Source: Spirosoma lacussanchae
Lineage (GTDB): Bacteria; Bacteroidota; Bacteroidia; Cytophagales; Spirosomataceae
Reading direction: 5' to 3'
Length of the DNA stretch: 64,000 nt
NCBI RefSeq assembly: GCF_005870035.1
Contig: NZ_SWJG01000004.1
Location: 254,604-318,603 of the forward strand
The position numbers and the translations under genes were made by a program. Position 1 is the stretch's first letter. The number at the start of each line of letters is the position of its first letter. Of the stretch, positions 5,541 to 64,000 are shown one piece after another. Under the pieces are notes generated by a model that made no database searches, was not told the DNA's origin, and saw only the letters and a program-made list of their open reading frames with translations.

Positions 5541-7718
5541 ATGAACAAACACGTTCTCATGCTGCTAGGACTGCTCATCGGGTACGCCCCGGCCTGTTCA
5601 GCGCAGCGGGTTACCATCCGGCAGACTGATCAATCGCCCCAGAGCCGGTATGCGGCAGCACAGCTGACAAAGGCCCTTAGCAGCCGGTCATACAGTGTAC
5701 AGACCGGTAAACAGCCAACCGACTTCAGCATCCGGCTGGCACCGGCTAATCCCGCACTGGGTGCCGAAGCTTATTCGCTCGACTGGCGTCAGAAACAGCT
5801 TACCATAACCGGTGGCGATGCAAGAGGGATGATTTACGGGGCCCTGTCGGTTGTCGAAGACCTGACAAACGGGATAGCCCTGCCGCAGCTTAAACCCCGC
5901 AGCGAACGGCCGCATTTGCCCCTCCGCGCCATTAAATTCGACCTTCCGTGGGATACGTACCGACATAGTTATGCGCTCGACCTGCACTACGAAACGTGCC
6001 GGGATACGCTCTACTGGCAAGCGTTTCTGGACATGATGGTGACCAACCGGTTCAACGCACTCAGCCTCTGGAATCTGCACCCCTACCCGTTCATGATCCG
6101 GCCAACTAACTTCCCGGCGGCTACCCCCTTCAGCGAGACGCAGATGGCCGACTGGCAGCGGCTCTTCAAAGCTATCTTCCGCATGGCCAGCGAACGGGCC
6201 ATCGAGACATACCTGATTCCGTTCAATATTTTCACCAGTCCCGAATTCTCTAAAGCCTACAACCCCAACCCGGCACTAAACAACCTCGACCATAAGCACT
6301 TCGTCGACGGCGACACCTCGGCCATTGTGAAGCGGTACACGCGCGAATGCGTTACGCAGGTCCTGCAGGAGTACCCCGAACTGACCGGGTTCGGGCTGAC
6401 CCTGGGCGAAGGGATGGGCGGCATGACACCCCAGCAGCGTGAAGACTGGATGAACCAGACCATCATTGAAGGCATGCGCCAGGCAGGCCGGAAAACGAAA
6501 CTGGTCCATCGGATTCCGTTCTCCAGTACTACCGGTTCGCTCGGTATAACGAGTGTCGAAACCGAAAAGCTGACCCGAAAATCCATCGAGCGCGAAGGGG
6601 CGCTGGACTTTATTGAAGGGCCAATCTGGGCCGACCTGAAATACAACTGGTCACACGCCCACTCCACGCCAACGCTGGTGAAAGTGCATGGGGGCAAACT
6701 ATACGACACCTATTTTAACCCCGTCCCATCGGCCTATAAAGTAACCTGGACTGCCCGCAACGAGGATTTTTTCTGCCTGCGCTGGGGCGTACCCGACTTT
6801 GTACGGGCGCACGTCAGGACCAACAGCCAGCCCTATGTCGGCGGGTATTTCCTGGGCTCGGAGACCTATATTCCGGCCCGCGATTACTTTACAGCCCCCG
6901 GCGGGCCGGTCAACTGGCGGTACGCGTTTGAGCGGCAATGGCTGTTTTACAAACTGTGGGGACGGCTGCTGTACAATCCGGCCACCGCCGATGCGGTGTT
7001 CCGGGCTGAGTTCGTGCGTCGGTACGGACCCAAGGCAGGTCCGTTGCTGGAGGCCTATGCGCTGGCGTCGACGACTCCGCTCCGGCTGGCTTCGGCTTTC
7101 GACTTCACCTGGGATTTCTCGCTGTACAGCGAAGGCATGATGGCACACGATGCCGACAAGAACGTCTCGTATATCTCCGTTAATCAGCAAATCACCCAAC
7201 CTACCCTCGACCCAACCTATGTGTCGGTCAGCGACTACGTGAAGACCACCAACGCGGGTGGATCGTTCGGTCCTGACAAAATGACCCCGACCCGACTGGC
7301 CCGGCTGCTGGAGCAGGACTGCCGGAAAGCGCTGCAACTGGTGAAGCCCATCCCGACTGCCGCCAGCCGATCGCTGCAGTACGAAGTGGCCGACGTGCTG
7401 GCATGGGCCAATCTGGGCTTACACCTGGCCGAGAAGCTGCGGGGCGCCGTTGCACTGCAAACCTACCGCACTACCGGCAACGAGACCAGCAAGCAGGCCG
7501 CGGTCCAACACCTGAAAGCCGCCCTTCGCTACTGGGATGAAGTAATTGCCATCACCCGTCCGCTCTACAACGACATGCCGCTGGTACACCTGAGCGAACA
7601 GAAAGGCAGCACCTGGGCCGAAAACGACAAACTCCGGTTTCACTGGGCGAAGCTACGACCCGCCGTGGCCGCCGACATTATCATTGCCGAGCAGTCCAAA
7701 CCTGTTCGGGCAGACTAA
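5541..7718 (+). CDS. Secreted glycoside-hydrolase-like protein (GH20/GH67-type N-terminal domain)
   Basis: This is a predicted periplasmic or secreted carbohydrate-active enzyme of 725 residues. It has a signal peptide (1-21, ending CSAQ), then an about 110-residue alpha/beta domain ending in GGDARGMIYGALSVVEDL, the pattern of the accessory domain found before GH20 and GH67 catalytic barrels. Next comes a large region with barrel-like strands (for example NRFNALSLWNLHPYPFMI and TGFGLTLGEGMGG), and a helical C-terminal part. The acidic residue pair of GH20 (Asp-Glu) is not clearly present, so the exact family is uncertain; uronic-acid-removing enzymes are an alternative. It is a single gene, with an EcsC-type gene converging on it 13 bases away. 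Confidence 0.65.
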   Translation: MNKHVLMLLGLLIGYAPACSAQRVTIRQTDQSPQSRYAAAQLTKALSSRSYSVQTGKQPTDFSIRLAPANPALGAEAYSLDWRQKQLTITGGDARGMIYGALSVVEDLTNGIALPQLKPRSERPHLPLRAIKFDLPWDTYRHSYALDLHYETCRDTLYWQAFLDMMVTNRFNALSLWNLHPYPFMIRPTNFPAATPFSETQMADWQRLFKAIFRMASERAIETYLIPFNIFTSPEFSKAYNPNPALNNLDHKHFVDGDTSAIVKRYTRECVTQVLQEYPELTGFGLTLGEGMGGMTPQQREDWMNQTIIEGMRQAGRKTKLVHRIPFSSTTGSLGITSVETEKLTRKSIEREGALDFIEGPIWADLKYNWSHAHSTPTLVKVHGGKLYDTYFNPVPSAYKVTWTARNEDFFCLRWGVPDFVRAHVRTNSQPYVGGYFLGSETYIPARDYFTAPGGPVNWRYAFERQWLFYKLWGRLLYNPATADAVFRAEFVRRYGPKAGPLLEAYALASTTPLRLASAFDFTWDFSLYSEGMMAHDADKNVSYISVNQQITQPTLDPTYVSVSDYVKTTNAGGSFGPDKMTPTRLARLLEQDCRKALQLVKPIPTAASRSLQYEVADVLAWANLGLHLAEKLRGAVALQTYRTTGNETSKQAAVQHLKAALRYWDEVIAITRPLYNDMPLVHLSEQKGSTWAENDKLRFHWAKLRPAVAADIIIAEQSKPVRAD

Positions 7719-7731
7719 GCCACAGGCGGGC

Positions 7732-8472
7732 TCAGCCGGCCAGCAACGTCTGGTCTTCGGTGAGCAGCCGCATCCGATAAGCGTTCATGGCCGTACGACC
7801 GAGCTGATTGACCAGTCGGTAATTGACCACTATACCGACCGCGGCCCCAATGCCGGGAACCAGCTGCGCCATTTTAGCCAGGTCGATGTAATCGCGGTAC
7901 TCCTGCTGGAAGGTCTGCCAGTCGAACTGGTTGATATCCTCCGGCAATTCACGGCTGTGTCGGGGCCAGTCGGCCAGGTGTTTGTAGACCGCCTGCCGCC
8001 GTTCCTGACTCGAGAAAGCCAGCTGAAACACATATAGCATATATACCCGTTCGCGGTAATCGCTGACCTGGTACCCGTAGAGGGCTGCGATTTCGAAAAG
8101 CATTTTCATCTTCAACGTCAGCAGCAACGGAAAGTCGGCCAGCCCGAGCAGCAGGCCACCCGCCCCCGTCACGCCCCCTTCGGCGGCACTGGCATTCCGG
8201 TAAAACCGGATTCGCCCGGCAACGGCCGCATCCCGCTCGGTCAACGTCAGCCCCTCGGCGGGTTTGCTGGTTAGAAATCCGGCACCGAAGAGAACGGCCC
8301 GGGTCATTTGTTTGATAGCGGTCGTGATGACATCGTGTACACGCTGCGGAATCATTCGGTTGATCCGGCGCTGCCACCGGGCCGATAGTTTTCCGAAGCC
8401 AGAGGGCGGGCGCTGCATCGCTAGCTGCCAGCGGGTTAGCTCAGTTCGGACGGCGGTTTCGTAGGGGGTCAT
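7732..8472 (-). CDS. EcsC-family protein
   Basis: This 246-residue protein matches the EcsC family, proteins of unclear role first named from an ABC transporter operon in Bacillus. Visible family features are the N-terminal helix region with NRMIPQRVHDVITTAIKQM, the glycine-rich stretch EGGVTGAGGLLLGLADFPLLL in the middle, and a helical tail ending in an LVPGIGAAVGIVVNYRLVNQLG segment. The glycine-rich hydrophobic parts suggest membrane association without a signal peptide. It has no obvious functional partner here: neighbours on both sides are on the other strand. Confidence 0.85.
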   Translation of the reverse strand: MTPYETAVRTELTRWQLAMQRPPSGFGKLSARWQRRINRMIPQRVHDVITTAIKQMTRAVLFGAGFLTSKPAEGLTLTERDAAVAGRIRFYRNASAAEGGVTGAGGLLLGLADFPLLLTLKMKMLFEIAALYGYQVSDYRERVYMLYVFQLAFSSQERRQAVYKHLADWPRHSRELPEDINQFDWQTFQQEYRDYIDLAKMAQLVPGIGAAVGIVVNYRLVNQLGRTAMNAYRMRLLTEDQTLLAG

Positions 8473-8581
8473 GGCAGGAAAATTCAGACTTTTTCGTATC
8501 TTAAACGAATCTTTGCCGGCTCCGGTGCGTTTTTTCTTTACATCTTTGTTATACCCAACCCTCTAACAGCCGCTTGTCCTT

Positions 8582-9310
8582 ATGAAGAGAATTGTCGTGT
8601 TGTTGTCTCTGACTGCCTTGCTGAATGTAGCCAGCACCGCCCCCAGCGCTACCCGTACAGTTGCTTCTGCCACGCCCACATCGTCTGTAAAAACGGCCGC
8701 TTCCAGCAAATCCTTCGGTCATCTTGCGGTATATGACCTGCTCAATCTGGGCCAGTCGGGCCTTCAGAAAGAGGTGTTCGAATACGCCCTGCGTGGCTGG
8801 CAGAAAATGGGAGCCTCCAGGCCAATCCTGTCTATAGTAGACCTGAGTCAGCCCTCTACCAAAAAACGGCTTTACGTCGTTGACCTGCTCAATAAAAAAC
8901 TGCTGTTCAACACCTACGTGGCCCACGGTCAGCATTCGGGCGATCTGATGGCCAGCCGTTTCTCGAACGTTAATGCCTCATTTCAGAGCAGTCTGGGTTT
9001 TTACCAGACGCTGAATACTTACATGGGTAAACATGGTCTGTCTCTTCAGCTCAAAGGGCTCGAGAAAGGCTTTAATGACCAGGTTTATAATCGCAACATC
9101 GTTCTGCACGGCGCCGATTATGCCTGCGAAGATTTTATTAAGAAAACCGGTCGGCTGGGTCGCAGCCAGGGTTGCCCGGCCGTACCCTACGCCGACTCGA
9201 AAAACATCATCCAGGCCGTCAAGGGCGGCACCTGTCTGTTCGTTTACGCCCCCAATCAGGACTACCTGAAACAGTCGGCTTACTTGTCGAATCCGTACAC
9301 GTCTTTGTAG
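8582..9310 (+). CDS. Murein L,D-transpeptidase catalytic-domain protein (YkuD_2 type)
   Basis: This exported 242-residue protein has a signal peptide (about 1-21) followed by a Thr/Ser/Ala linker and an L,D-transpeptidase-like domain. The predicted catalytic pair is His176 (in LHGADY) and Cys198 (in RSQGCPAV), the arrangement of the YkuD_2 group. Such enzymes act in the periplasm on peptidoglycan stem peptides, making 3-3 cross-links or attaching proteins. The gene's last 31 bases overlap the end of a second L,D-transpeptidase on the opposite strand. A CATCTTTG sequence at 8541-8548 is one base off the Bacteroidota -7 box and may be part of its promoter. Confidence 0.85.
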   Translation: MKRIVVLLSLTALLNVASTAPSATRTVASATPTSSVKTAASSKSFGHLAVYDLLNLGQSGLQKEVFEYALRGWQKMGASRPILSIVDLSQPSTKKRLYVVDLLNKKLLFNTYVAHGQHSGDLMASRFSNVNASFQSSLGFYQTLNTYMGKHGLSLQLKGLEKGFNDQVYNRNIVLHGADYACEDFIKKTGRLGRSQGCPAVPYADSKNIIQAVKGGTCLFVYAPNQDYLKQSAYLSNPYTSL

Positions 9311-10500
9311 AACCGGAGCCGCCCGGCCGCGTCTACATCAGCGGTGTTGTAGGCGATGAATACCGGAAACGGTTTGGCCACGGCCATCGTCTGCGGTTTC
9401 TGATCGATCAGGCATCGGTTCATGAATCCTTTGTCGAATGTTTCTTTGCCCAGCACGAAGTTGGCCAGCTCGACGGGTTTCTGTACCCGTACGCAGCCAT
9501 GACTCCGCCAGCGGTCGGCGGTAAGGGTAAACATATCCCGCCCGTTCGTATCGTGCAGATAGATAGCCAGCGGGTTGATCAGGTCGAACTTGATCAGTCC
9601 CAGGGCATTCTCGCAACCCGAAGCCTGCCGGATACGGTACGGAAAGTTTGTTTCTGACAGACTGGCCCAGTCAACATCTTCCGGGTTTACAACCTTATTC
9701 CGTTCGTCCAGCACCTCCAGATTCTGGTTGTACAGAAAGGCCACATCGCGCTGAATTTTGGGCAGCATTTCTTTGGTAGCAATACTTTTTGGCACGTTCC
9801 AGTACGGGTAAGCCACGATGTTCTGGATGGCTGTTGTCATGCAGGGAGTCCGTTTGTCGGCTTTACCGGCAATGACCTGCATCGGCAGCAGACGCCGGCC
9901 GCTCCGGTCAAATACATTGAGTTCGCCCGCCGGTATGTTGACCACCACAAACCGATCGCCCGCAAACCGATTGGTGTATCGGTAGAAATTGAGCGACTGC
10001 CGGATAATCCGCAGTGAATCGGCCATGGCGGGGCGGCTACCGGCCAGCTTCCGAAGCCGGTTATAATGGCCCACCAGCTGTTTGTAGGGGCCGAACGTAG
10101 CTGCACTGGCCAGCATACCATCCATTGATGATACATCGGCCTTCTGCGCCCACGACGAGTCAACGGCTTCTTTCAGCCCGTCGAACTCCATACGCGATGG
10201 CTTCTTGCCGTAGCGGATCTCCAGCAACAGCCGCGCCCGCTTATCGTCAAGCTGGGCCAGGGATGGCTGAGCGCCGACGGCAAAGCGACTGGTATCGATC
10301 CCGACTGAATCGGCATAGCGGCAAACCTGGTGCAGACTTTGGGTAGCCGCTGCCAGTTTTTCGTTCTCCTGCTCTACCTGAGCCTGCTTCTCCCGGTCGG
10401 CAGCCCGCTGAGTAAACAGGTAACGACCCACAAAAAACACGATAATAATCCCGGCAATGACGCCGATTAGTAGTCCAATTCTATTTTTATTCATGTTCAT
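9280..10500 (-). CDS. L,D-transpeptidase (YkuD/YcbB type), membrane anchored
   Basis: This 406-residue protein starts with a membrane anchor (about residues 8-28), then a charged coiled segment and a helical region, then the YkuD catalytic domain. The active-site motif is RWRSHGCVRV with Cys336 as nucleophile, preceded by the substrate-binding YLHDTNGRDMF segment. The layout resembles YcbB (LdtD), which makes 3-3 cross-links between peptidoglycan stem peptides, but the C-terminal tail after the active site is longer than in minimal YkuD proteins. It converges with the other L,D-transpeptidase (8582-9310) and their 3' ends overlap by 31 bases. Two starts are possible (ATG at 10500 and two codons later); the difference does not matter for function. 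Confidence 0.88.
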   Translation of the reverse strand: MNMNKNRIGLLIGVIAGIIIVFFVGRYLFTQRAADREKQAQVEQENEKLAAATQSLHQVCRYADSVGIDTSRFAVGAQPSLAQLDDKRARLLLEIRYGKKPSRMEFDGLKEAVDSSWAQKADVSSMDGMLASAATFGPYKQLVGHYNRLRKLAGSRPAMADSLRIIRQSLNFYRYTNRFAGDRFVVVNIPAGELNVFDRSGRRLLPMQVIAGKADKRTPCMTTAIQNIVAYPYWNVPKSIATKEMLPKIQRDVAFLYNQNLEVLDERNKVVNPEDVDWASLSETNFPYRIRQASGCENALGLIKFDLINPLAIYLHDTNGRDMFTLTADRWRSHGCVRVQKPVELANFVLGKETFDKGFMNRCLIDQKPQTMAVAKPFPVFIAYNTADVDAAGRLRFYKDVYGFDK

Positions 10501-10568
10501 ACGTTGACTCTGCTCGCCTATTTATAACGCGTGAGATTAGGTATTGGTTATACAGACGCGTTAAACGA

Positions 10569-10598
10569 AAGAAGGCGTTCCTCTCGAAACGCCTTCTT
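10569..10598 (-). terminator. Hairpin terminator after the small acidic protein gene
   Basis: Two 11-base arms, AAGAAGGCGTT (10569-10579) and AACGCCTTCTT (10588-10598), pair perfectly around an 8-base loop. On the minus strand the second arm is followed by TTCG and TTTAA, a weak U-tract. It lies just past the stop of the 10615-10878 gene. Confidence 0.6.
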
Positions 10599-10614
10599 CA
10601 GGACCCATTTTCCC

Positions 10615-10878
10615 TTAACTGTAGGGCGGCTTATCGATATCTACTTTACCGTCGCGGTTCCGGTTTGGGTGGGTGGTAGCCACATCGTCTTCTTCGGCAT
10701 CATCAGCCGGGGTTGTATCCATGCCGCTCACCGGCGTGTCTTCCGGAGAGTCGTTACCGGGTAGTCGGGTCGCTTTGTCGGAGCGGTCGCCTAAACCAGC
10801 GGGCGAAATAGCCTGTTTGGCACGCAGGATATCTTCTTTTTCGGGATCTTCCATGACGTTGTTTGTTTCGGATTTCAT
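10615..10878 (-). CDS. Small acidic disordered protein, function unknown
   Basis: This 87-residue protein has no signal peptide, no membrane segment and no catalytic motif. It is rich in Asp, Glu, Pro and Thr, so it is probably unstructured. The C-terminus NRNRDGKVDIDKPPYS has the look of a conserved tail, because similar Asp-Lys-Pro endings occur in short proteins of related Cytophagia; that memory-based comparison is weak evidence. The gene lies between two minus-strand genes and is followed by a good hairpin, which supports it being a real transcription unit. I do not assign a function. Confidence 0.55.
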   Translation of the reverse strand: MKSETNNVMEDPEKEDILRAKQAISPAGLGDRSDKATRLPGNDSPEDTPVSGMDTTPADDAEEDDVATTHPNRNRDGKVDIDKPPYS

Positions 10879-10913
10879 TTAATCTACTACACCGATAGAA
10901 CATTCACCACCCA

Positions 10914-13565
10914 CTATTGTTTGTCGGTAGCCATCCGAAATCGAGGGTAAGGCGCGTTGCCTTTCGTGGCAAACCACAGAATTTCATTCATCAACTCGTC
11001 TTCACCGGTGTCGATACCTTCCTCGGCCTGTTCAACCGATTCACGGGCATAATGCAGCGCCCGGCCGCGCAGGCTCGACAGGGGTTTGTTCATCTCGTCG
11101 AGCCGGACGCGGTTGGACAAAGCGGTAAAGGGCGCCGGATCGGGCTTGTCGGTAAAACAGTCGAACATGGGTAGCGCCGTTGCGTCGATCACGTTCATGG
11201 GCGGCAGGCCCAGAATCTGTTCGATCGTCCGGATCATGGACGTCTGGTTGTAATTGGTTCTGACCGTACGTCGAAGGCGTGAATAGGGACTGATCACGAA
11301 GCCGGTCGTACGGTAGGCCGACACGTGGTCCCAGCCGGACTGCGAGTCATCTTCGGTAATGAAAATAACCGTATTGGCCGCGAACCGGCTCCTGCTGATG
11401 GCTTCGACAATCCGCCCTACGGCCAGGTCATTATCGGCTACCATAGCGCGCGGAGTCGGAAATTCGGGGCTCATCCCGGCCGTATGATCGTTGGGCAGCG
11501 ACATCACCATCAGGTTCGGCCAGTCGTCGCCGGGGCGGGCACTGGCTTCGTTCAACTCCCGGATAAACGCGTCGGCCCGCATCTGATCGTTGATCGTTTC
11601 ATCATCGCAGCCCGGAAAGTCCATCGCCAGAATAGGCCTTACCCGCGAAATGGTAGTGGTATTGGTAAACGAAAACGGCTGTCCAACCTGTCGCATCTGG
11701 TAGAGCTTTTGCCAGTCGTATTGTTTCTTATCGAATTCGCAGGTGCAGGCTTCGCCGTAGATCCGGACGGTTTTACCGTGATCGAGGGCGTTGGTCCAGA
11801 TCATGCCTTTTTTGTTGTAGACCAGCGCGTCGTACAGCACGTGCGGATAGGACCGGAACCAGGCCCGCACGCTTTTTTCGGTATAGTCGGTAACCATAGC
11901 TGCATCGGCCCAGTGATGCCCCTCGGCCGACGACTTGCCCGACACGTAATAGTTGTCCAGCAGCATGAACTCGCGGGCCAGCTGGTGCTGGTTAGGCGTT
12001 ACGCTGTCGCCGAAGACACACAGTGACGGCATGCCTTTCCCCTCGCGCATGTCGCCCAGTACCTGATCGTAAGTCCGGTTTTCCTTGATGATGTACACCA
12101 CGTGTTTAAAGACCGATGGCTCGCCGATACGCTCGGGTACCGGCTGGGGCGCCCTGTTGGGTCTGGGCAACTGCTCGGCCAGGGCCAGCCGAAACTGAAG
12201 GGTCATCCTGCGGACATCAGCCGTATAGTTCGCCAGCTGGGCCTCCGTCGGCACGGCAATGCAGGAGAGCGTTGCCAGCTGCCGATGCGCTGTAAAGGCC
12301 TGCTGACCGGTCTTTTGCGGCTGGGATGTCTGGCTCGCTCCCAGCTCAACGGCTGTAGCAATACGCGCCCCGTTCCCTTCGAGGTTGGCCACGTACAACT
12401 CGTTACCCAGACACAGAATCCCGGCCGGGTAAGCCTGCGTCGGCACGTAGCCCCGAACCCGGCTGCTGTCGGCCAGCGAAACAACGGCCAGAGCATTGTC
12501 GAGACCGTTGGCCACATAAAGCGTTGTTTCGGTGGGATCGAGCGCCAGGGCGTTGGGGGTGCTGCCAATGTAGGCCGTCTGACCGCCAAACAGCCCCACG
12601 GCGATTGAATCGGTAACCCGCCGGGTTTGCGCATCGATGACCGAAATGTTATCGCTGTTACCATTTGCTACGTAAAGCACCCGACCATCGCGACGACTGA
12701 TGATAGCATTCGGGTGCAGCCCTACCTTGATGCTGGTTTCTGGCTTTCCCGTTTTCAGGTCGATTACCGTTACCGACCCCCGGGCCATGGCACCGGTACG
12801 GGGATCGATGTAGGCAGCGCCCCAGGGGACACCGGCCGTTTCGTGGGTGCTGGTCGAGTCGGGCACGGGTCCGGCCCAGTTCGTTACGTAGGCCTGATCA
12901 CCCGCCAGCGCCACCCCAAATGGCGCAACACCCGTTTGGGCTGTCCAGACCACCGATCGATCCGAAAACCGAACCTTGGCCAGCTGATTATTGCCGTTTA
13001 GCACCACGTACAGATACGTCTCACCGCCTTCAGCCCGCACGGCTACATCGTTGGCCAGCGCAATAGGGGCCGGCGCAACCGGCACGAACGGCAGCAGCTC
13101 CACTTTCCCTATTTTACCATCGGCCCAGGAAGCAATCATGAGTCCGGACTGGCCTTTTTCGCGCTCCGACGCGCCCCAGACGATATAGGTCTGGTTCTGA
13201 TGGGTAAACACCTCGATACCGGAGTACGTGCTCATCAGTGCTTTGTAGGCCGGCACATCGCGAAACGTCCACCGGTGCACGATCCGGCGGCTCGGCCGGT
13301 CCAGTATCGCAATGCCGTACCGATCCTCAATGACCAGCTGCGTCTGACCCGGCAGCACCGCCATGTCCAGCGTATGGTTCTCGAGTTTCGGATCGCCATA
13401 ACTCAGCACGGTGCCGGCCGACTGGGTAAGCCGGTTATAGGGCATGATGGCTGGCGAACGGTCATCGAGACGTTGCTTATCCGACCGGTGTTTATAGGCT
13501 CGCGGCTGCGCGGCCGACAGAAAACTAAGCAGGCACAGACAAACAAGAAGTACAGGTGTTTTCAT
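10914..13565 (-). CDS. YncE-like beta-propeller fused to phosphoesterase/alkaline phosphatase-like domain
   Basis: This is an exported protein of 883 residues with two parts. After a signal peptide (1-20, ending SAAQ), the first half has repeated beta-propeller blades, for example LYVANGNSDNISVIDAQTRRV and LYVANGLDNALAVVSLADSS, as in YncE proteins. The second half begins at HVVYIIKENRTYDQVLGDM, the first motif of the phosphoesterase family (phospholipase C and acid phosphatase AcpA type), and contains the metal-binding segments MSLPNDHTAG and ITEDDSQSGWDHV. It probably removes phosphate from an extracellular or periplasmic substrate. The start at 13565 was chosen for the signal peptide; an upstream start at 13637 is not needed. 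It lies downstream of a SusC/SusD pair on the same strand, separated by a hairpin. Confidence 0.88.
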   Translation of the reverse strand: MKTPVLLVCLCLLSFLSAAQPRAYKHRSDKQRLDDRSPAIMPYNRLTQSAGTVLSYGDPKLENHTLDMAVLPGQTQLVIEDRYGIAILDRPSRRIVHRWTFRDVPAYKALMSTYSGIEVFTHQNQTYIVWGASEREKGQSGLMIASWADGKIGKVELLPFVPVAPAPIALANDVAVRAEGGETYLYVVLNGNNQLAKVRFSDRSVVWTAQTGVAPFGVALAGDQAYVTNWAGPVPDSTSTHETAGVPWGAAYIDPRTGAMARGSVTVIDLKTGKPETSIKVGLHPNAIISRRDGRVLYVANGNSDNISVIDAQTRRVTDSIAVGLFGGQTAYIGSTPNALALDPTETTLYVANGLDNALAVVSLADSSRVRGYVPTQAYPAGILCLGNELYVANLEGNGARIATAVELGASQTSQPQKTGQQAFTAHRQLATLSCIAVPTEAQLANYTADVRRMTLQFRLALAEQLPRPNRAPQPVPERIGEPSVFKHVVYIIKENRTYDQVLGDMREGKGMPSLCVFGDSVTPNQHQLAREFMLLDNYYVSGKSSAEGHHWADAAMVTDYTEKSVRAWFRSYPHVLYDALVYNKKGMIWTNALDHGKTVRIYGEACTCEFDKKQYDWQKLYQMRQVGQPFSFTNTTTISRVRPILAMDFPGCDDETINDQMRADAFIRELNEASARPGDDWPNLMVMSLPNDHTAGMSPEFPTPRAMVADNDLAVGRIVEAISRSRFAANTVIFITEDDSQSGWDHVSAYRTTGFVISPYSRLRRTVRTNYNQTSMIRTIEQILGLPPMNVIDATALPMFDCFTDKPDPAPFTALSNRVRLDEMNKPLSSLRGRALHYARESVEQAEEGIDTGEDELMNEILWFATKGNAPYPRFRMATDKQ

Positions 13566-59845: not shown

Positions 59846-59866
59846 GGCTAGTTAATACCAGCTACG

Positions 59867-60238
59867 CTATTTCGTTTGCAGTTCGAGGATTTTTATATAA
59901 TTTAATAAATATTGCTCACGTTCAATACTTCTTGCCCGCTCTTGCTCAAATTCGACAATTTTTTGGTCTCTTTCAAGCAACTGCTGTCGTTGCAATCGTA
60001 TTGTTTCTTCTAAATCCGTAGAAAATGTTTCTTTTCTTTCAGAGAAGAGTGTACTTATGGGTACACGTAGTACATGAGCAATTTGTTGAAGTCTGACGGT
60101 CGATAACTTTATTTTTCCATTCTCGATTTTTGAATACGTTGCCGGACTTACACCAATTTGTTCTGCAATGTATTCTTGTTTTAAATGTTTAGATTCCCGT
60201 AACACACGTAAATTAATTGCAAGTGATTTTATATCCAT
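59867..60238 (-). CDS. XRE-family HTH regulator with C-terminal coiled coil
   Basis: This 123-residue protein has a helix-turn-helix of the Cro/C1 (XRE) type over about residues 8-66, with IAEQIGVSPATYSKIENGKI as the recognition helix pair, and then a coiled coil of about 45 residues (TDLEETIRLQRQQLLERDQKIVEFEQERA) for dimerisation. It lies divergent to the peptide gene at 60442. A perfect 77-base palindrome sits between them, 27 bases from its start codon. The DNA is AT-rich, unlike the GC-rich genes to the left. It probably controls the peptide locus or itself (inference). Confidence 0.88.
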   Translation of the reverse strand: MDIKSLAINLRVLRESKHLKQEYIAEQIGVSPATYSKIENGKIKLSTVRLQQIAHVLRVPISTLFSERKETFSTDLEETIRLQRQQLLERDQKIVEFEQERARSIEREQYLLNYIKILELQTK

Positions 60239-60264
60239 AGATTAAAAAGTAAATAGAAACCATC

Positions 60265-60341
60265 AGCAAGTAGCATTCGAGACGGTAAAGTAGAATGAAA
60301 GTGACTTTCATTCTACTTTACCGTCTCGAATGCTACTTGCT
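60265..60341. repeat. Perfect 77-base palindrome (38-base arms, 1-base centre)
   Basis: Bases 60265-60302 are the exact reverse complement of 60304-60341, with a single G at 60303 between them. The arms begin AGCAAGTAGC and end GAATGAAAGT. Long perfect palindromes with a 1-base spacer are rare and unstable in bacteria, so this is either a strong cruciform-forming or regulatory site of the divergent region, the end of a mobile element, or an assembly fold-back artefact. Confidence 0.9.
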
Positions 60342-60441
60342 ATTTTGGAAACACAGAATCAGGCTAATAAAGCGCATATTTGTAAAGCTAAAGCGAAGCA
60401 ACCCGCTGGTGTGGTTGTGGAAAGCCAAAGCCTAAAACCCA

Positions 60442-60606
60442 ATGAATCGTTTATCCCTGGCCGATTTGAAGGCAAAAGTCAATGTAGTAGCGAATGTTGA
60501 AGCCATTAAGGGCGGGACTGCAGAGGCTTGTCATTTAGGATCTTGCGGAGATACGACTATGCCAGCAGATGGCACCCGTGTCGCAAAACCAGGAAAAAGT
60601 ATTTAA
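60442..60606 (+). CDS. Candidate RiPP precursor peptide with double-glycine leader (54 residues)
   Basis: This short gene encodes a 54-residue peptide in two parts. The leader MNRLSLADLKAKVNVVANVE continues to AIKGG, so Gly24-Gly25 is a typical double-glycine cleavage site of Bacteroidota peptide precursors. The core of 29 residues begins TAEACHLGSCGDTT and ends VAKPGKSI; it has Cys30, Cys35 and two Asp residues (37 and 43) after the GG. The start is the ATG at 60442 and the stop is at 60604-60606. A hairpin follows before the next gene. Peptides of this form are usual substrates for modifying enzymes encoded next to them. That it is translated is inferred from form and position. An alternative frame across it (60330-60500) was rejected. 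Confidence 0.7.
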   Translation: MNRLSLADLKAKVNVVANVEAIKGGTAEACHLGSCGDTTMPADGTRVAKPGKSI

Positions 60607-60612
60607 TTTATG

Positions 60613-60645
60613 GAGCCCTGATTTGATCATATTAGGTCAGGGCTC
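60613..60645 (+). terminator. Attenuator-like hairpin between the precursor and the modification genes
   Basis: GAGCCCTGA (60613-60621) and TCAGGGCTC (60637-60645) form a 9-base-pair stem with a 15-base loop, followed by TTACTTTCTT. It begins 7 bases past the precursor stop and 24 bases before the next start. This arrangement usually makes the precursor messenger far more abundant than the downstream enzymes. Confidence 0.65.
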
Positions 60646-60668
60646 TTACTTTCTTGTTGATTTTAATT

Positions 60669-61820
60669 ATGAGAGGATATTCTGTTTCAACAATCCTAAT
60701 ATTACTATCATTTGCAGCATGCTCCCAACCCATACAAAATACAACTACTCAAACATTGTTTATTAATCCATCTGTTATTAATCAAGATGACTCGGAAGTA
60801 AAAGAAGTCATATCGGTTTGGAGGAAGTACTTATTGACTAAAGACTCATTATATCAAACTAATCCTTATTGGTCTAATCTGGAATACAAGAAAAGAAACA
60901 TACCAGATTATTTTCTTAAACGGATTAATCACTCTGGAATTTTTAATCAAAAAAATCTATATAAACCCACTGTATTATCTGTTGTAAGAGACGATAGTTC
61001 TTATATCATTAAAACCTTGTTTGCAACCGCAGAAAAAGACAACGGATTTTCTCGCGTTTCTGGAATAATTAATGTTGAAGCAATAAAAGAAAATGGAAAT
61101 TGGAAGCTAAAATCTATGTTAGATCAAAACCTAAAAAAGTATCAACAATATCAGGCTGGTAAAATTCTATATTATTTTTCTAAAAATAGAAAATTAGACA
61201 CATTACTTTGTAACAAATTTAACGAAATAAACACAGACATAGCTAGAAAATTTGACGTTTCTCCTATGGATATTATTTATTATTTATGCACAGATAATAA
61301 TGAACTGCAACGTTTAATTGGATTTGACTATGAGATTTCAATGGCTTATCCTAACCAGGTAAGTGGCCTTGCCGACATTTTCAATAATACTATTTATGCG
61401 GGTAATAATAGTGAATGGTACCCGCACGAGTTAGTACACCTTTATGTAAAGGATAAGTTTGGATTTGCAGTAAATTATTGTTTTAATGAGGGCATAGCAA
61501 CATATCTCGGTGGTAGTGTTGGGAATTCTCTACAATATCATTTGCATAAGATAGCGGTATATGTTAGAAATCACTCTGTAGATTTTACTAAATTATCATC
61601 CTTAGAACGTATTGATGACGAGACGAATTTTCAGTACAGTATTGGTGGCTTAATTTGTAAGATAGCTGATGAACGCTTGGGATTTGAAGGTATTAACAAA
61701 CTTCTTCAAACTGGAGACTCAGATGAAGAAATGTTTCAGGCCATCGAAAATACATTGGGTGTAAAACGAGGAAATTTTAATGAGTTTATTCACACTGAAT
61801 TAAAAAAATATGTCAATTAA
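60669..61820 (+). CDS. Exported HExxH lipoprotein (gluzincin-like metallopeptidase candidate)
   Basis: This 383-residue protein has a lipoprotein signal peptide with lipobox FAAC (Cys18). A zinc-binding motif HELVH (His253 to His257) is followed by Glu274 in NEGIATYLGG, the arrangement of gluzincin-type peptidases (MA-like clan). The ATG at 60669 was chosen because it begins the signal; a TTG at 60654 adds five residues. The region before the motif is of unclear fold. It is AT-rich and its stop overlaps the next gene by 11 bases. It may cleave the leader of the exported peptide outside the cytoplasm, but that is only suggested by position. Confidence 0.75.
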   Translation: MRGYSVSTILILLSFAACSQPIQNTTTQTLFINPSVINQDDSEVKEVISVWRKYLLTKDSLYQTNPYWSNLEYKKRNIPDYFLKRINHSGIFNQKNLYKPTVLSVVRDDSSYIIKTLFATAEKDNGFSRVSGIINVEAIKENGNWKLKSMLDQNLKKYQQYQAGKILYYFSKNRKLDTLLCNKFNEINTDIARKFDVSPMDIIYYLCTDNNELQRLIGFDYEISMAYPNQVSGLADIFNNTIYAGNNSEWYPHELVHLYVKDKFGFAVNYCFNEGIATYLGGSVGNSLQYHLHKIAVYVRNHSVDFTKLSSLERIDDETNFQYSIGGLICKIADERLGFEGINKLLQTGDSDEEMFQAIENTLGVKRGNFNEFIHTELKKYVN

Positions 61821-62955
61821 GTTATTTAGTTTAGAGGTTGACGATTTCTTGGTTCAATCTAATCAGATCGAGTTATCAGACACTGTTCGTTTGCTTTTAT
61901 ATCAGCAGTATCCTAGCTGGTTTGAATACTTAGCGTACGACAATGATGCCATATTTCTTGAGCCTACTCTCTTCTATTCTTTTTCTGACAAATCCTTATG
62001 CGAATTACCTATAGAACAAATATTATTTGGCTATCTACCTGAAGATAAGCGCCCTGGTCAATTTAAAGCTCTTATTGACCCATATGGCTTAATTAGTTTG
62101 CCCAGCTATGGATATATCCATACTAGTTATTCAAAAGAAATCATAGAGATTAACAAGTCAGATATTAATAACTTTAGCAATAAACACACTTTATTAGAAG
62201 AGTCTATTCAGCTTAACCAACACGTTCCTTTTATATTTTATACAGATAAAGTTATGAAATTAAAAGTTAATGAACCAATATCAAAAACCATATCTACACA
62301 TAAGTTACATTTACTAAAAGCATTTGAATTTTTGCAAAAATATTCACGTAAATTTTGGGAGATTATAAAATTAGTAACACGAGAAATTACTTTATTCAAT
62401 AGCCCGAATCAGCGTTCTATGGCGGCAATTTCCTATCATGGAACAGCATTTATTAATACAGAAGGGCAGGCACATGACGAGGTTTTCTTTATAGAAGATT
62501 TAGCACATCAATGTGGTCATATAATTTTTTATGCTTTAACGTTGAAGGCGAACGACTTTCTCAAAATTCGGAAAGAAACGCCAGTATGTGATATAACCGG
62601 TGTTCAACATGACAGCCGAACAGTCTATGGTGTGTTTCATGGTCTTTTTACTTACACTACTATCCTTTATTGCTTAACCGAATGTTTAAAATCAGGCGTT
62701 TTTAGCTATTCGCAACAGTTAGAGTCAATAGCTCGTATTGGCTTTTTTATGCAAAAATTTCAGGTGGATTTAATTTATATGAACCATCCTGAAATTTTCA
62801 CTCCGAAAGGCTGGCTAATATACTCAAGTGCTAAAGATAGCTTTGAACAGATTCAGCAGATGTTTAAAGCTGACTATGCGCTTTATCGCTATGATAATCA
62901 ACCTTACATTTTTAACTATGAATTATTTAGAGAAGCCAATGGTATTCTTACGTAA
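61810..62955 (+). CDS. Candidate alpha-ketoglutarate/HExxH-type peptide beta-hydroxylase (HQCGH variant)
   Basis: This 381-residue protein has no signal peptide. Its central part reads EVFFIEDLAHQCGHIIFYAL, where His233 and His237 hold the places of the HExxH motif, but Gln replaces Glu. About 40 residues later comes DSRTVYGVFHGLF with His277, a hallmark that I associate with the aKG-HExxH-type peptide beta-hydroxylase family (TIGR04267), which modifies RiPP precursors. The likeness is by eye. The gene starts inside the end of the lipoprotein gene (11-base overlap), and the next gene starts inside its end (17-base overlap), so the three are translationally coupled. The most likely substrate is the peptide at 60442-60606. 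Confidence 0.6.
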   Translation: MSIKLFSLEVDDFLVQSNQIELSDTVRLLLYQQYPSWFEYLAYDNDAIFLEPTLFYSFSDKSLCELPIEQILFGYLPEDKRPGQFKALIDPYGLISLPSYGYIHTSYSKEIIEINKSDINNFSNKHTLLEESIQLNQHVPFIFYTDKVMKLKVNEPISKTISTHKLHLLKAFEFLQKYSRKFWEIIKLVTREITLFNSPNQRSMAAISYHGTAFINTEGQAHDEVFFIEDLAHQCGHIIFYALTLKANDFLKIRKETPVCDITGVQHDSRTVYGVFHGLFTYTTILYCLTECLKSGVFSYSQQLESIARIGFFMQKFQVDLIYMNHPEIFTPKGWLIYSSAKDSFEQIQQMFKADYALYRYDNQPYIFNYELFREANGILT

Positions 62956-64000
62956 ATTTAGTCTGTTATTTTTGTTTGTAAGTACGCCAATCTGGCTGCT
63001 GGCTCAAATAAGTCGGCAGCCAGATTATAGTAATGCCCTAAAAGCTAAGGCGATTCTTGATCAGGCTATTGATTATAGCGGACTAGGATCGGATAGCCTG
63101 AATATGGTTATTTCTGCTAAGGGCGTAATGCATGAGTCCGGGCATTTTTCGGCCCCCGAAGAGCGGATCGACGTACCCGAGACCTATACGCTAAGTATCT
63201 TCAGTAGCATAGAGAATTATTATATTGATGGCCAGATAAATTTTCGGGGTCGGAATCTTACCCGGCAGGTATATGTGAAACAGGATAGTATCTTTTATAG
63301 GGACCATTTTGGCAGGGGCGTTAGCCGGGAGGCCCTGATCCGATCTATCCCTGTCTATAATGAAATTCTGGCATTGCATCCGGCTTTGATTTTGAACGAG
63401 GCTCGTCGGTCTTTGCTTTCATTGCGGTACCTAGGAAAAGTGGGAGCTGTCGCCTTGCTCTCATTCTCTACCAACCAAACTTCCTTTACGCTTCATATTT
63501 TGCCGAATGGACAAGTTAAACAAGTTTCGTATTTGGCAAGTCACAATTATTATGGCGATAATGTTCACAGATATGATTACCTGGACTATAAGCCTATAGC
63601 AGGCTACAATCTGCCAACTCGCTTTAACGAATATGAGTTTGGTGGCTTACGGAAGGACCTGACGTTTACTTACGACTTTGCACCTACCTTAACCTTGCCT
63701 GTCAATCAGGTTTGTCCAGGATGCTCTCTTGTGCCGAAGAGAAAAAATGCCAATATAACCGTGAAAAATTTGGGTGGTGATTTGTATAGCGTTGATTTAA
63801 ATGCTTACAACAATCGCTCGTTGTTTCTGGTCGCAAAAAATGGAGTTACGGTCTTCGAGGCTCCTGTAAGTTATAAGGCGGGTCGGGATGTTATTGAAGC
63901 CGTAAACCAAACAACAGGAGGTAAACCTATTACTCAACTGATGGTAACGCACCACCACCCCGACCATGCAGGTGGCCTGCGCGCCTTTGCCGAACAAGGG
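62939..64000 (+). CDS. Exported MBL-fold metallohydrolase, 3' end cut by window
   Basis: The frame stays open to the end of the window, 354 residues so far. It begins MVFLRKFSLLFLFV, a signal peptide ending LLAQ at 22-23. A mostly beta N-terminal domain of about 230 residues follows, and the metal-binding motif THHHPDHAGG (His338, His340, Asp342, His343) is reached just before the edge. The motif identifies a metallo-beta-lactamase fold; the rest of the domain is outside. It contains an isolated CPGC pair around residues 258-261. The start codon overlaps the hydroxylase-like gene by 17 bases. The base composition rises again to near the genome level, so it may be a resident gene next to the AT-rich locus. 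Confidence 0.85.
   Translation, partial: MVFLRKFSLLFLFVSTPIWLLAQISRQPDYSNALKAKAILDQAIDYSGLGSDSLNMVISAKGVMHESGHFSAPEERIDVPETYTLSIFSSIENYYIDGQINFRGRNLTRQVYVKQDSIFYRDHFGRGVSREALIRSIPVYNEILALHPALILNEARRSLLSLRYLGKVGAVALLSFSTNQTSFTLHILPNGQVKQVSYLASHNYYGDNVHRYDYLDYKPIAGYNLPTRFNEYEFGGLRKDLTFTYDFAPTLTLPVNQVCPGCSLVPKRKNANITVKNLGGDLYSVDLNAYNNRSLFLVAKNGVTVFEAPVSYKAGRDVIEAVNQTTGGKPITQLMVTHHHPDHAGGLRAFAEQG

Follow-up and report, generated by a model that had tools for sequence, protein, structure and literature searches.

The right end of the window, a 64,000-nucleotide stretch of Spirosoma lacussanchae DNA (C18:254604-318603 of the source genome), holds part of a gene cluster that makes and exports a ribosomal peptide (RiPP). 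As the original prediction had proposed, a double-glycine (GG) precursor is combined here with a hydroxylase-type enzyme, and support comes from the gene order, the co-occurrence of leader and enzyme, an invariant Cys-His pair in the precursor core, a C39 exporter and the fold match of the enzyme. The five genes then named (for an XRE regulator, a 54-residue GG peptide, and HExxH, HQCGH and MBL proteins) are all found where they had been placed, as are the head-to-tail overlaps of 11 bases between the zincin and HQCGH genes and 17 bases between the HQCGH and MBL genes. The chemistry, product and use of the cluster are inferred, with no activity known for any member of the enzyme group. The window edge cuts the cluster, the remaining genes lying past position 64000 on L003 (C18:313000-332000, the contig read rightward past that edge; window position = L003 position + 58396). 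The features are as follows.

59850..64000, no strand: part of the module inside the window; empty site in the near-identical genome G149
59867..60238, minus strand: XRE/HTH_3 regulator, divergent from the operon (Pfam HTH_3, E 3.1e-15)
60265..60341, no strand: perfect 38-bp inverted repeat, arms 1 nt apart, in the gap separating the regulator and precursor genes (z -11.5)
60442-60606, plus strand: GG precursor, 54 aa; leader of 25 residues up to and including Gly-Gly, then a core of 29
60442..60516, plus strand: leader MNRLSLADLKAKVNVVANVEAIKGG, 25 residues, basis of the leader-only profile A4
60517..60606, plus strand: core TAEACHLGSCGDTTMPADGTRVAKPGKSI and stop, with Cys-His at core positions 5-6
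60612..60646, plus strand: terminator-like hairpin directly 3' of the precursor
60669..61820, plus strand: exported HExxH...E zincin, gluzincin-like; an alternative TTG start is possible at 60654
61810..62955, plus strand: HQCGH enzyme, related to alpha-ketoglutarate HExxH peptide beta-hydroxylases
62939..64000, continuing to about 64429 (L003:4543-6033), plus strand: exported MBL-fold protein with HHHPDH (Pfam Lactamase_B, E 1.7e-9)
L003:6053-8257: C39-peptidase ABC transporter, directly after the MBL gene (Pfam Peptidase_C39, E 6.8e-30)
L003:8257-9555: HlyD protein, after the ABC transporter
L003:9996-10313: IS1 InsA-like fragment, after the HlyD gene

Reading the contig rightward altered the picture of export. 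The original prediction saw no ABC transporter, which proved to be an artefact of the window edge, since the C39-ABC and HlyD genes lie just past it, directly after the MBL gene, and the export route that had been called unclear can now be assigned to this pair. The transporter also carries ABC_tran and ABC_membrane domains and DCGPTC, RHF and ADP motifs. With its GG leader, C39-ABC transporter and HlyD adaptor, the cluster resembles bacteriocin and RiPP export through C39 peptidase (PCAT) systems; unlike these it has no lanthionine, radical SAM, YcaO or ATP-grasp enzyme, and its modifying enzyme is of the HQxxH type.

The peptide meets the criterion of a small precursor with a conserved leader ending in GG (profiles and alignments A3/A4). 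Across 40 aligned precursors the Cys-His pair is invariant (40/40) and stands exactly four residues after the GG in 37, a count that takes in GR and GQ equivalents of GG. Entropy is 0 at Cys-His and exceeds 2.7 bits at all remaining core positions in the range GG+1 to CH+14, and outside the pair the core is hypervariable in this alignment. Five further precursors from G365, G501 and G513, genomes that the enzyme HMM picked out by itself with no precursor in the query, all read GG-x4-CH, giving 45/45 with Cys-His. Strict retention within an otherwise free core is expected of modified residues, and on this conservation we take Cys-His to be the putative modification target, an inference, but a strong one. 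Among variants of the GG position, the Aureispira locus L062 has GQ in place of GG in its own precursor, and L064 carries three precursors with GR in that place; at G596:C30:345860-352811, an entry listed with L062, six precursor-like matches lie near one enzyme.

In a 200-genome sample of the family, 17 genomes carry the enzyme, the source genome included. A4, a profile built from the 25 leader residues without the core, recovered 18 precursors (E<=0.0033) in exactly these 17 genomes. Leader and enzyme therefore co-occur in 17/17 enzyme genomes versus 0/183 others, no leader being found in the enzyme-free genomes of this sample; the next A4 match (E 0.033) looks like chance. When 84,980 species genomes were scanned, 33 enzyme loci emerged, some of them in genomes already found. 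These loci include Chryseotalea, Chitinophaga, Taibaiella, Flavobacterium, Aureispira and Saprospiraceae, as well as Saccharophagus and Marinagarivorans, one Zetaproteobacterium and two Planctomycetota. Seeded with HQC, this contig scan is biased towards Gln; that seed played no part in the genome searches by protein query and by HMM. The roughly 40 enzyme-bearing relatives span Bacteroidota, Gammaproteobacteria, Zetaproteobacteria and Planctomycetota, and most keep the same order: XRE, GG precursor, variable slot gene or genes, enzyme, often MBL, C39-ABC and HlyD. The original prediction would have been refuted by absence of this order from all relatives, where we looked for it and found it, or by wide occurrence of the enzyme and lipoprotein genes without a short peptide beside them. 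The latter is not the case either, the exceptions being two Planctomycetota contigs (L054 and L055) that encode the enzyme with HQCGH and have no recognised precursor or exporter nearby.

The HQCGH enzyme scores 23.3 bits against TIGR04267 (alpha-ketoglutarate HExxH peptide beta-hydroxylase; cut-off 40), a family matched weakly by 11 of 29 enzyme members. Judged on sequence, formal membership fails on both the score and the motif Glu; apart from this locus, no TIGR04267 proper was found in 198 Bacteroidota genomes. A PDB sequence search with enzyme profile A2 gave chance matches only. The AF2 model (pLDDT 93.2, pTM 0.92) has as its best Foldseek match in the PDB the HExxH oxygenase domain of ChlH (8s5f; E 2.1e-9, prob 1.00, TMq 0.57), with SjiH (22ob) second at E 2.5e-9 and a zincin peptidase the next structure at 0.4. 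SjiH differs in being annotated as a radical SAM core domain protein and in having Gln at the third His position of the alignment. H233, H237, R270, H277 and G334 are common to the enzyme and three HExxH relatives; the first four of these are invariant with L121, L122 and L128, and the same positions are present in 8s5f. In the predicted structure, an alpha-ketoglutarate-oxygenase-like fold with conserved His, His, Arg and His positions is shown, the active-site assignment resting on alignment and fold class only, without ligand-bound coordinates.

The only conserved motif residue to differ is the Glu of HExxH, replaced by Gln (Q234) in 29/29 aligned A2 members and in the G365 and G501 copies, and the other conserved active-site positions are invariant in A2 (29 members). 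In zincin peptidases the motif Glu is the general base. Replacement by Gln removes this base, so the enzyme should not hydrolyse peptide bonds, and Gln at this position predicts, by inference, an oxygenase without peptidase activity; PflC, which keeps the motif Glu, can hydrolyse (PMC12636437). The idea that Gln is universal here was dropped, since the G513 enzyme reads HEGSH and is still paired with GG-x4-CH precursors. In that genome (L139:4186-5835, 1661-1840; L140:2580-2771) the HEGSH enzyme is fused to a further domain and accompanied by two such precursors, a natural E/Q comparison.

We consider it probable that an Fe/alpha-ketoglutarate oxygenase modifies Cys-His, that the exporter cuts after GG and that the exported metallohydrolases trim or detoxify the product. 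The Fe(II) ligands of the enzyme would be His233, His237 and probably His277, and Arg270 may hold alpha-ketoglutarate. We infer that the enzyme recognises the conserved leader and oxidises Cys-His. The simplest chemistry would be beta-hydroxylation of the His, which the enzyme family is known to catalyse; oxidation or cross-linking of the Cys is less likely. In RiPP precursors, the residues hydroxylated at the beta-carbon by HExxH enzymes are Asp, His, Phe, Gln and Pro (PMC12636437, PMC13060819). The C39 domain of the ABC exporter is inferred to cleave after GG and would export the product with the HlyD protein, and the exported zincin and MBL protein would act on it outside the cytoplasm, as trimming enzymes or in self-protection. 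The product would probably be an antibacterial of narrow spectrum or else a signal, its specificity being set by the hypervariable tail.

By analogy, the mode of action would be that of an HExxH beta-hydroxylase system in which a leader guides the enzyme and a C39 transporter exports the product. The closest fold is the ChlH/ChlBH HExxH domain (8s5f), an alpha-ketoglutarate-dependent RiPP beta-hydroxylase of Asp and His, which has the same H..H, R and H positions and acts on a RiPP precursor with His among its targets. Identity to ChlH is only 10%, however, ChlH reads HExxH where the enzyme here reads HQxxH, and it is fused to a radical SAM domain, whereas the present enzyme stands alone in a cluster without a cyclophane maker. 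Stand-alone enzymes of the same kind beside a precursor are known in PflC and PosC of Pseudomonas and PesO of Peribacillus, although these have other partner enzymes (MNIO and others) and other target residues (Gln, Pro), and the Pfl and Pos systems differ further in having nitrile-hydratase-like leaders and no GG/C39 export.

Four other explanations have to be weighed against this one. The enzyme might act on the Cys, by thiol oxidation or by joining the Cys sulfur to the His or a neighbour, to give a cyclised or thioether-type product. The Cys is as invariant as the His and directly adjacent to it, and a Cys-Tyr cross-link by another alpha-ketoglutarate enzyme has been reported, as cited in PMC12636437; set against this, all characterised members of the fold named in the cited papers hydroxylate carbon or cleave the backbone, and we regard Cys chemistry as rather unlikely but still to be reckoned with. 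A protein that is dead or non-oxidising, and merely binds leader or core while the exporter matures an unmodified GG bacteriocin, would account for the absence of the HExxH Glu throughout the alignment and for the weak TIGR04267 score. We hold this to be very unlikely, given that the remaining conserved active-site positions are invariant, that a related cluster with an intact HEGSH has the same GG-x4-CH precursors and that the invariance of Cys-His is hard to explain without chemistry acting there.

The zincin-type motif could also mark a peptidase that trims the precursor, and PflC does hydrolyse a leaderless substrate (PMC12636437). The general-base Glu is replaced by Gln here, though, the fold matches oxygenases at 2e-9 versus peptidases at 0.4, and a C39 peptidase is already present in the exporter; on the fold search and the Glu-to-Gln change we reject a peptidase identity for the HQxxH protein, and its use in trimming is highly improbable. 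The last alternative concerns the product, which might be no antibacterial but a metallophore or metal chaperone with the modified Cys-His as ligand. Cys and His are both metal ligands, and hydroxy-His occurs in metallophores, general background with no direct support in the present data, but neither a receptor for metal uptake nor a metal regulator was noticed among the genes of the cluster and the hypervariable tail fits antagonism better, which makes a metal-binding product quite unlikely.

Our preferred reading, oxidation of Cys-His followed by cleavage and export, leaves the exported hydrolases to act afterward. The original prediction of an exported HExxH lipoprotein holds as to motif and export; the lipoprotein label is uncertain, lipobox-like sequences being present in the two Spirosoma copies (FAAC here, FVAC in L040) and most homologues having ordinary ...AQ signal peptides and no lipobox. 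The 60669-61820 protein meets the criteria for a gluzincin, namely HExxH with a downstream Glu ligand and a zincin fold: H253, H257 and E274 are invariant in 12 homologues (4 of which have HDxxH instead of HExxH), and the model (pLDDT 84.9) finds M9 and M1 gluzincin peptidase domains as best Foldseek matches (E 1.7e-5 to 1e-3, TMq about 0.4). It has no Pfam or NCBIfam match. The HDxxH homologues (L068:9134-10321, L070:9147-10334, L071:895-2082, L026:6778-7941) sit after the enzyme gene, not before it.

HHHPDH is kept in most clusters that carry the MBL gene. The slot of some relatives encodes a CPBP/Rce1-like intramembrane protease, and that of others an exported amidohydrolase with a thioredoxin-like protein, or ThiF with an alpha/beta hydrolase. 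The combination of exported metallohydrolases, unfamiliar when the locus was first noted, thus recurs in variant forms (gluzincin, MBL, amidohydrolase, CPBP protease). The common theme, a hydrolase, usually a metallohydrolase, that is extracytoplasmic or in the membrane, makes post-export trimming or self-protection likely for the slot and MBL hydrolases. Bacteriocin loci are known to carry CAAX-type proteases, which leans towards an immunity role.

The products look like an undescribed family of modified peptides. The kind of cluster has no named family in NCBIfam or Pfam, and we found no paper on HQxxH RiPP enzymes or such Bacteroidota clusters in the open-access literature (subscription papers not covered). 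Precursor, zincin and HQxxH enzyme have no matches or only sub-threshold ones in NCBIfam and Pfam, so that annotation easily overlooks such clusters. It is possible, although we propose it only tentatively, that GG-x4-Cys-His cores and HQxxH alpha-ketoglutarate oxygenases define a cross-phylum RiPP class with undescribed Cys-His chemistry (such as oxidative coupling of Cys to His, or hydroxylation of both residues), in which exported metallohydrolases serve as interchangeable modules for maturation or immunity. HExxH oxygenases have only recently been recognised as a kind of enzyme, and the HQxxH branch, which drops the motif-naming Glu and keeps the other active-site positions together with a strictly conserved two-residue target, is a ready test of the role of that Glu. 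Precursor, enzyme and C39 exporter make a compact expression system, with about 45 natural precursors that share the target and differ in their tails.

The whole module measures 9.28 kb, from window position 59850 to about 69126 (L003:1454-10730), and ends ~5.1 kb beyond the right edge; on the left it begins 17 bp beyond the end of the XRE gene that carries the stop codon, and on the right it ends after the IS fragment. G149 lacks everything between L003:1453 and 10731, the flanks L003:1-1453 and L003:10731-12347 being contiguous with a 5-bp overlap at the junction and the flanking genes 100% and 97% identical. This shows that the unit was gained or lost as a single piece; loss in G149 versus gain in the others is undecided. 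The cluster occupies the same chromosomal site in two other Spirosoma, G155 (flanks about 9.1 kb apart) and G068 (S. utsteinense; cluster split over two contigs), and the remaining Spirosoma have unrelated genes or nothing between these flanks. The G155 copy (L038, about 5877-13056) looks decayed, with the enzyme reduced to a truncated fragment and the exporter gene split. No match to the cluster was found among 72,556 plasmids.

The XRE gene adjoins the precursor in many relatives, and its product probably controls the cluster. The 38-bp inverted repeat between them, which like the hairpin after the precursor had escaped the original prediction, is single-copy in the genome, and S. utsteinense (L040) has a 41-bp perfect inverted repeat at the same place in which 12 of 38 aligned pairs are changed on both arms (counted by eye). 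A version so diverged and still perfect indicates that perfection is maintained by selection or templated correction, and the repeat is a candidate operator or leader hairpin; it is absent from the other relatives checked. That S. utsteinense carries a perfect repeat of its own, altered in pairs, makes an assembly artefact unlikely. The hairpin at 60612-60646, placed after the precursor, would leave precursor transcript in excess over enzyme transcript, which we consider its likely role. Rfam searches of the intergenic region found no known RNA family, only hairpin-driven miRNA-type matches below gathering scores. A 5'UTR hairpin of the CCAAAGG...CCTTTGG type, visible in part of the Spirosomaceae and not in other relatives, stands just before the precursor start codon in L036, L037, L027, L028, L030, L035, L025 and L032.
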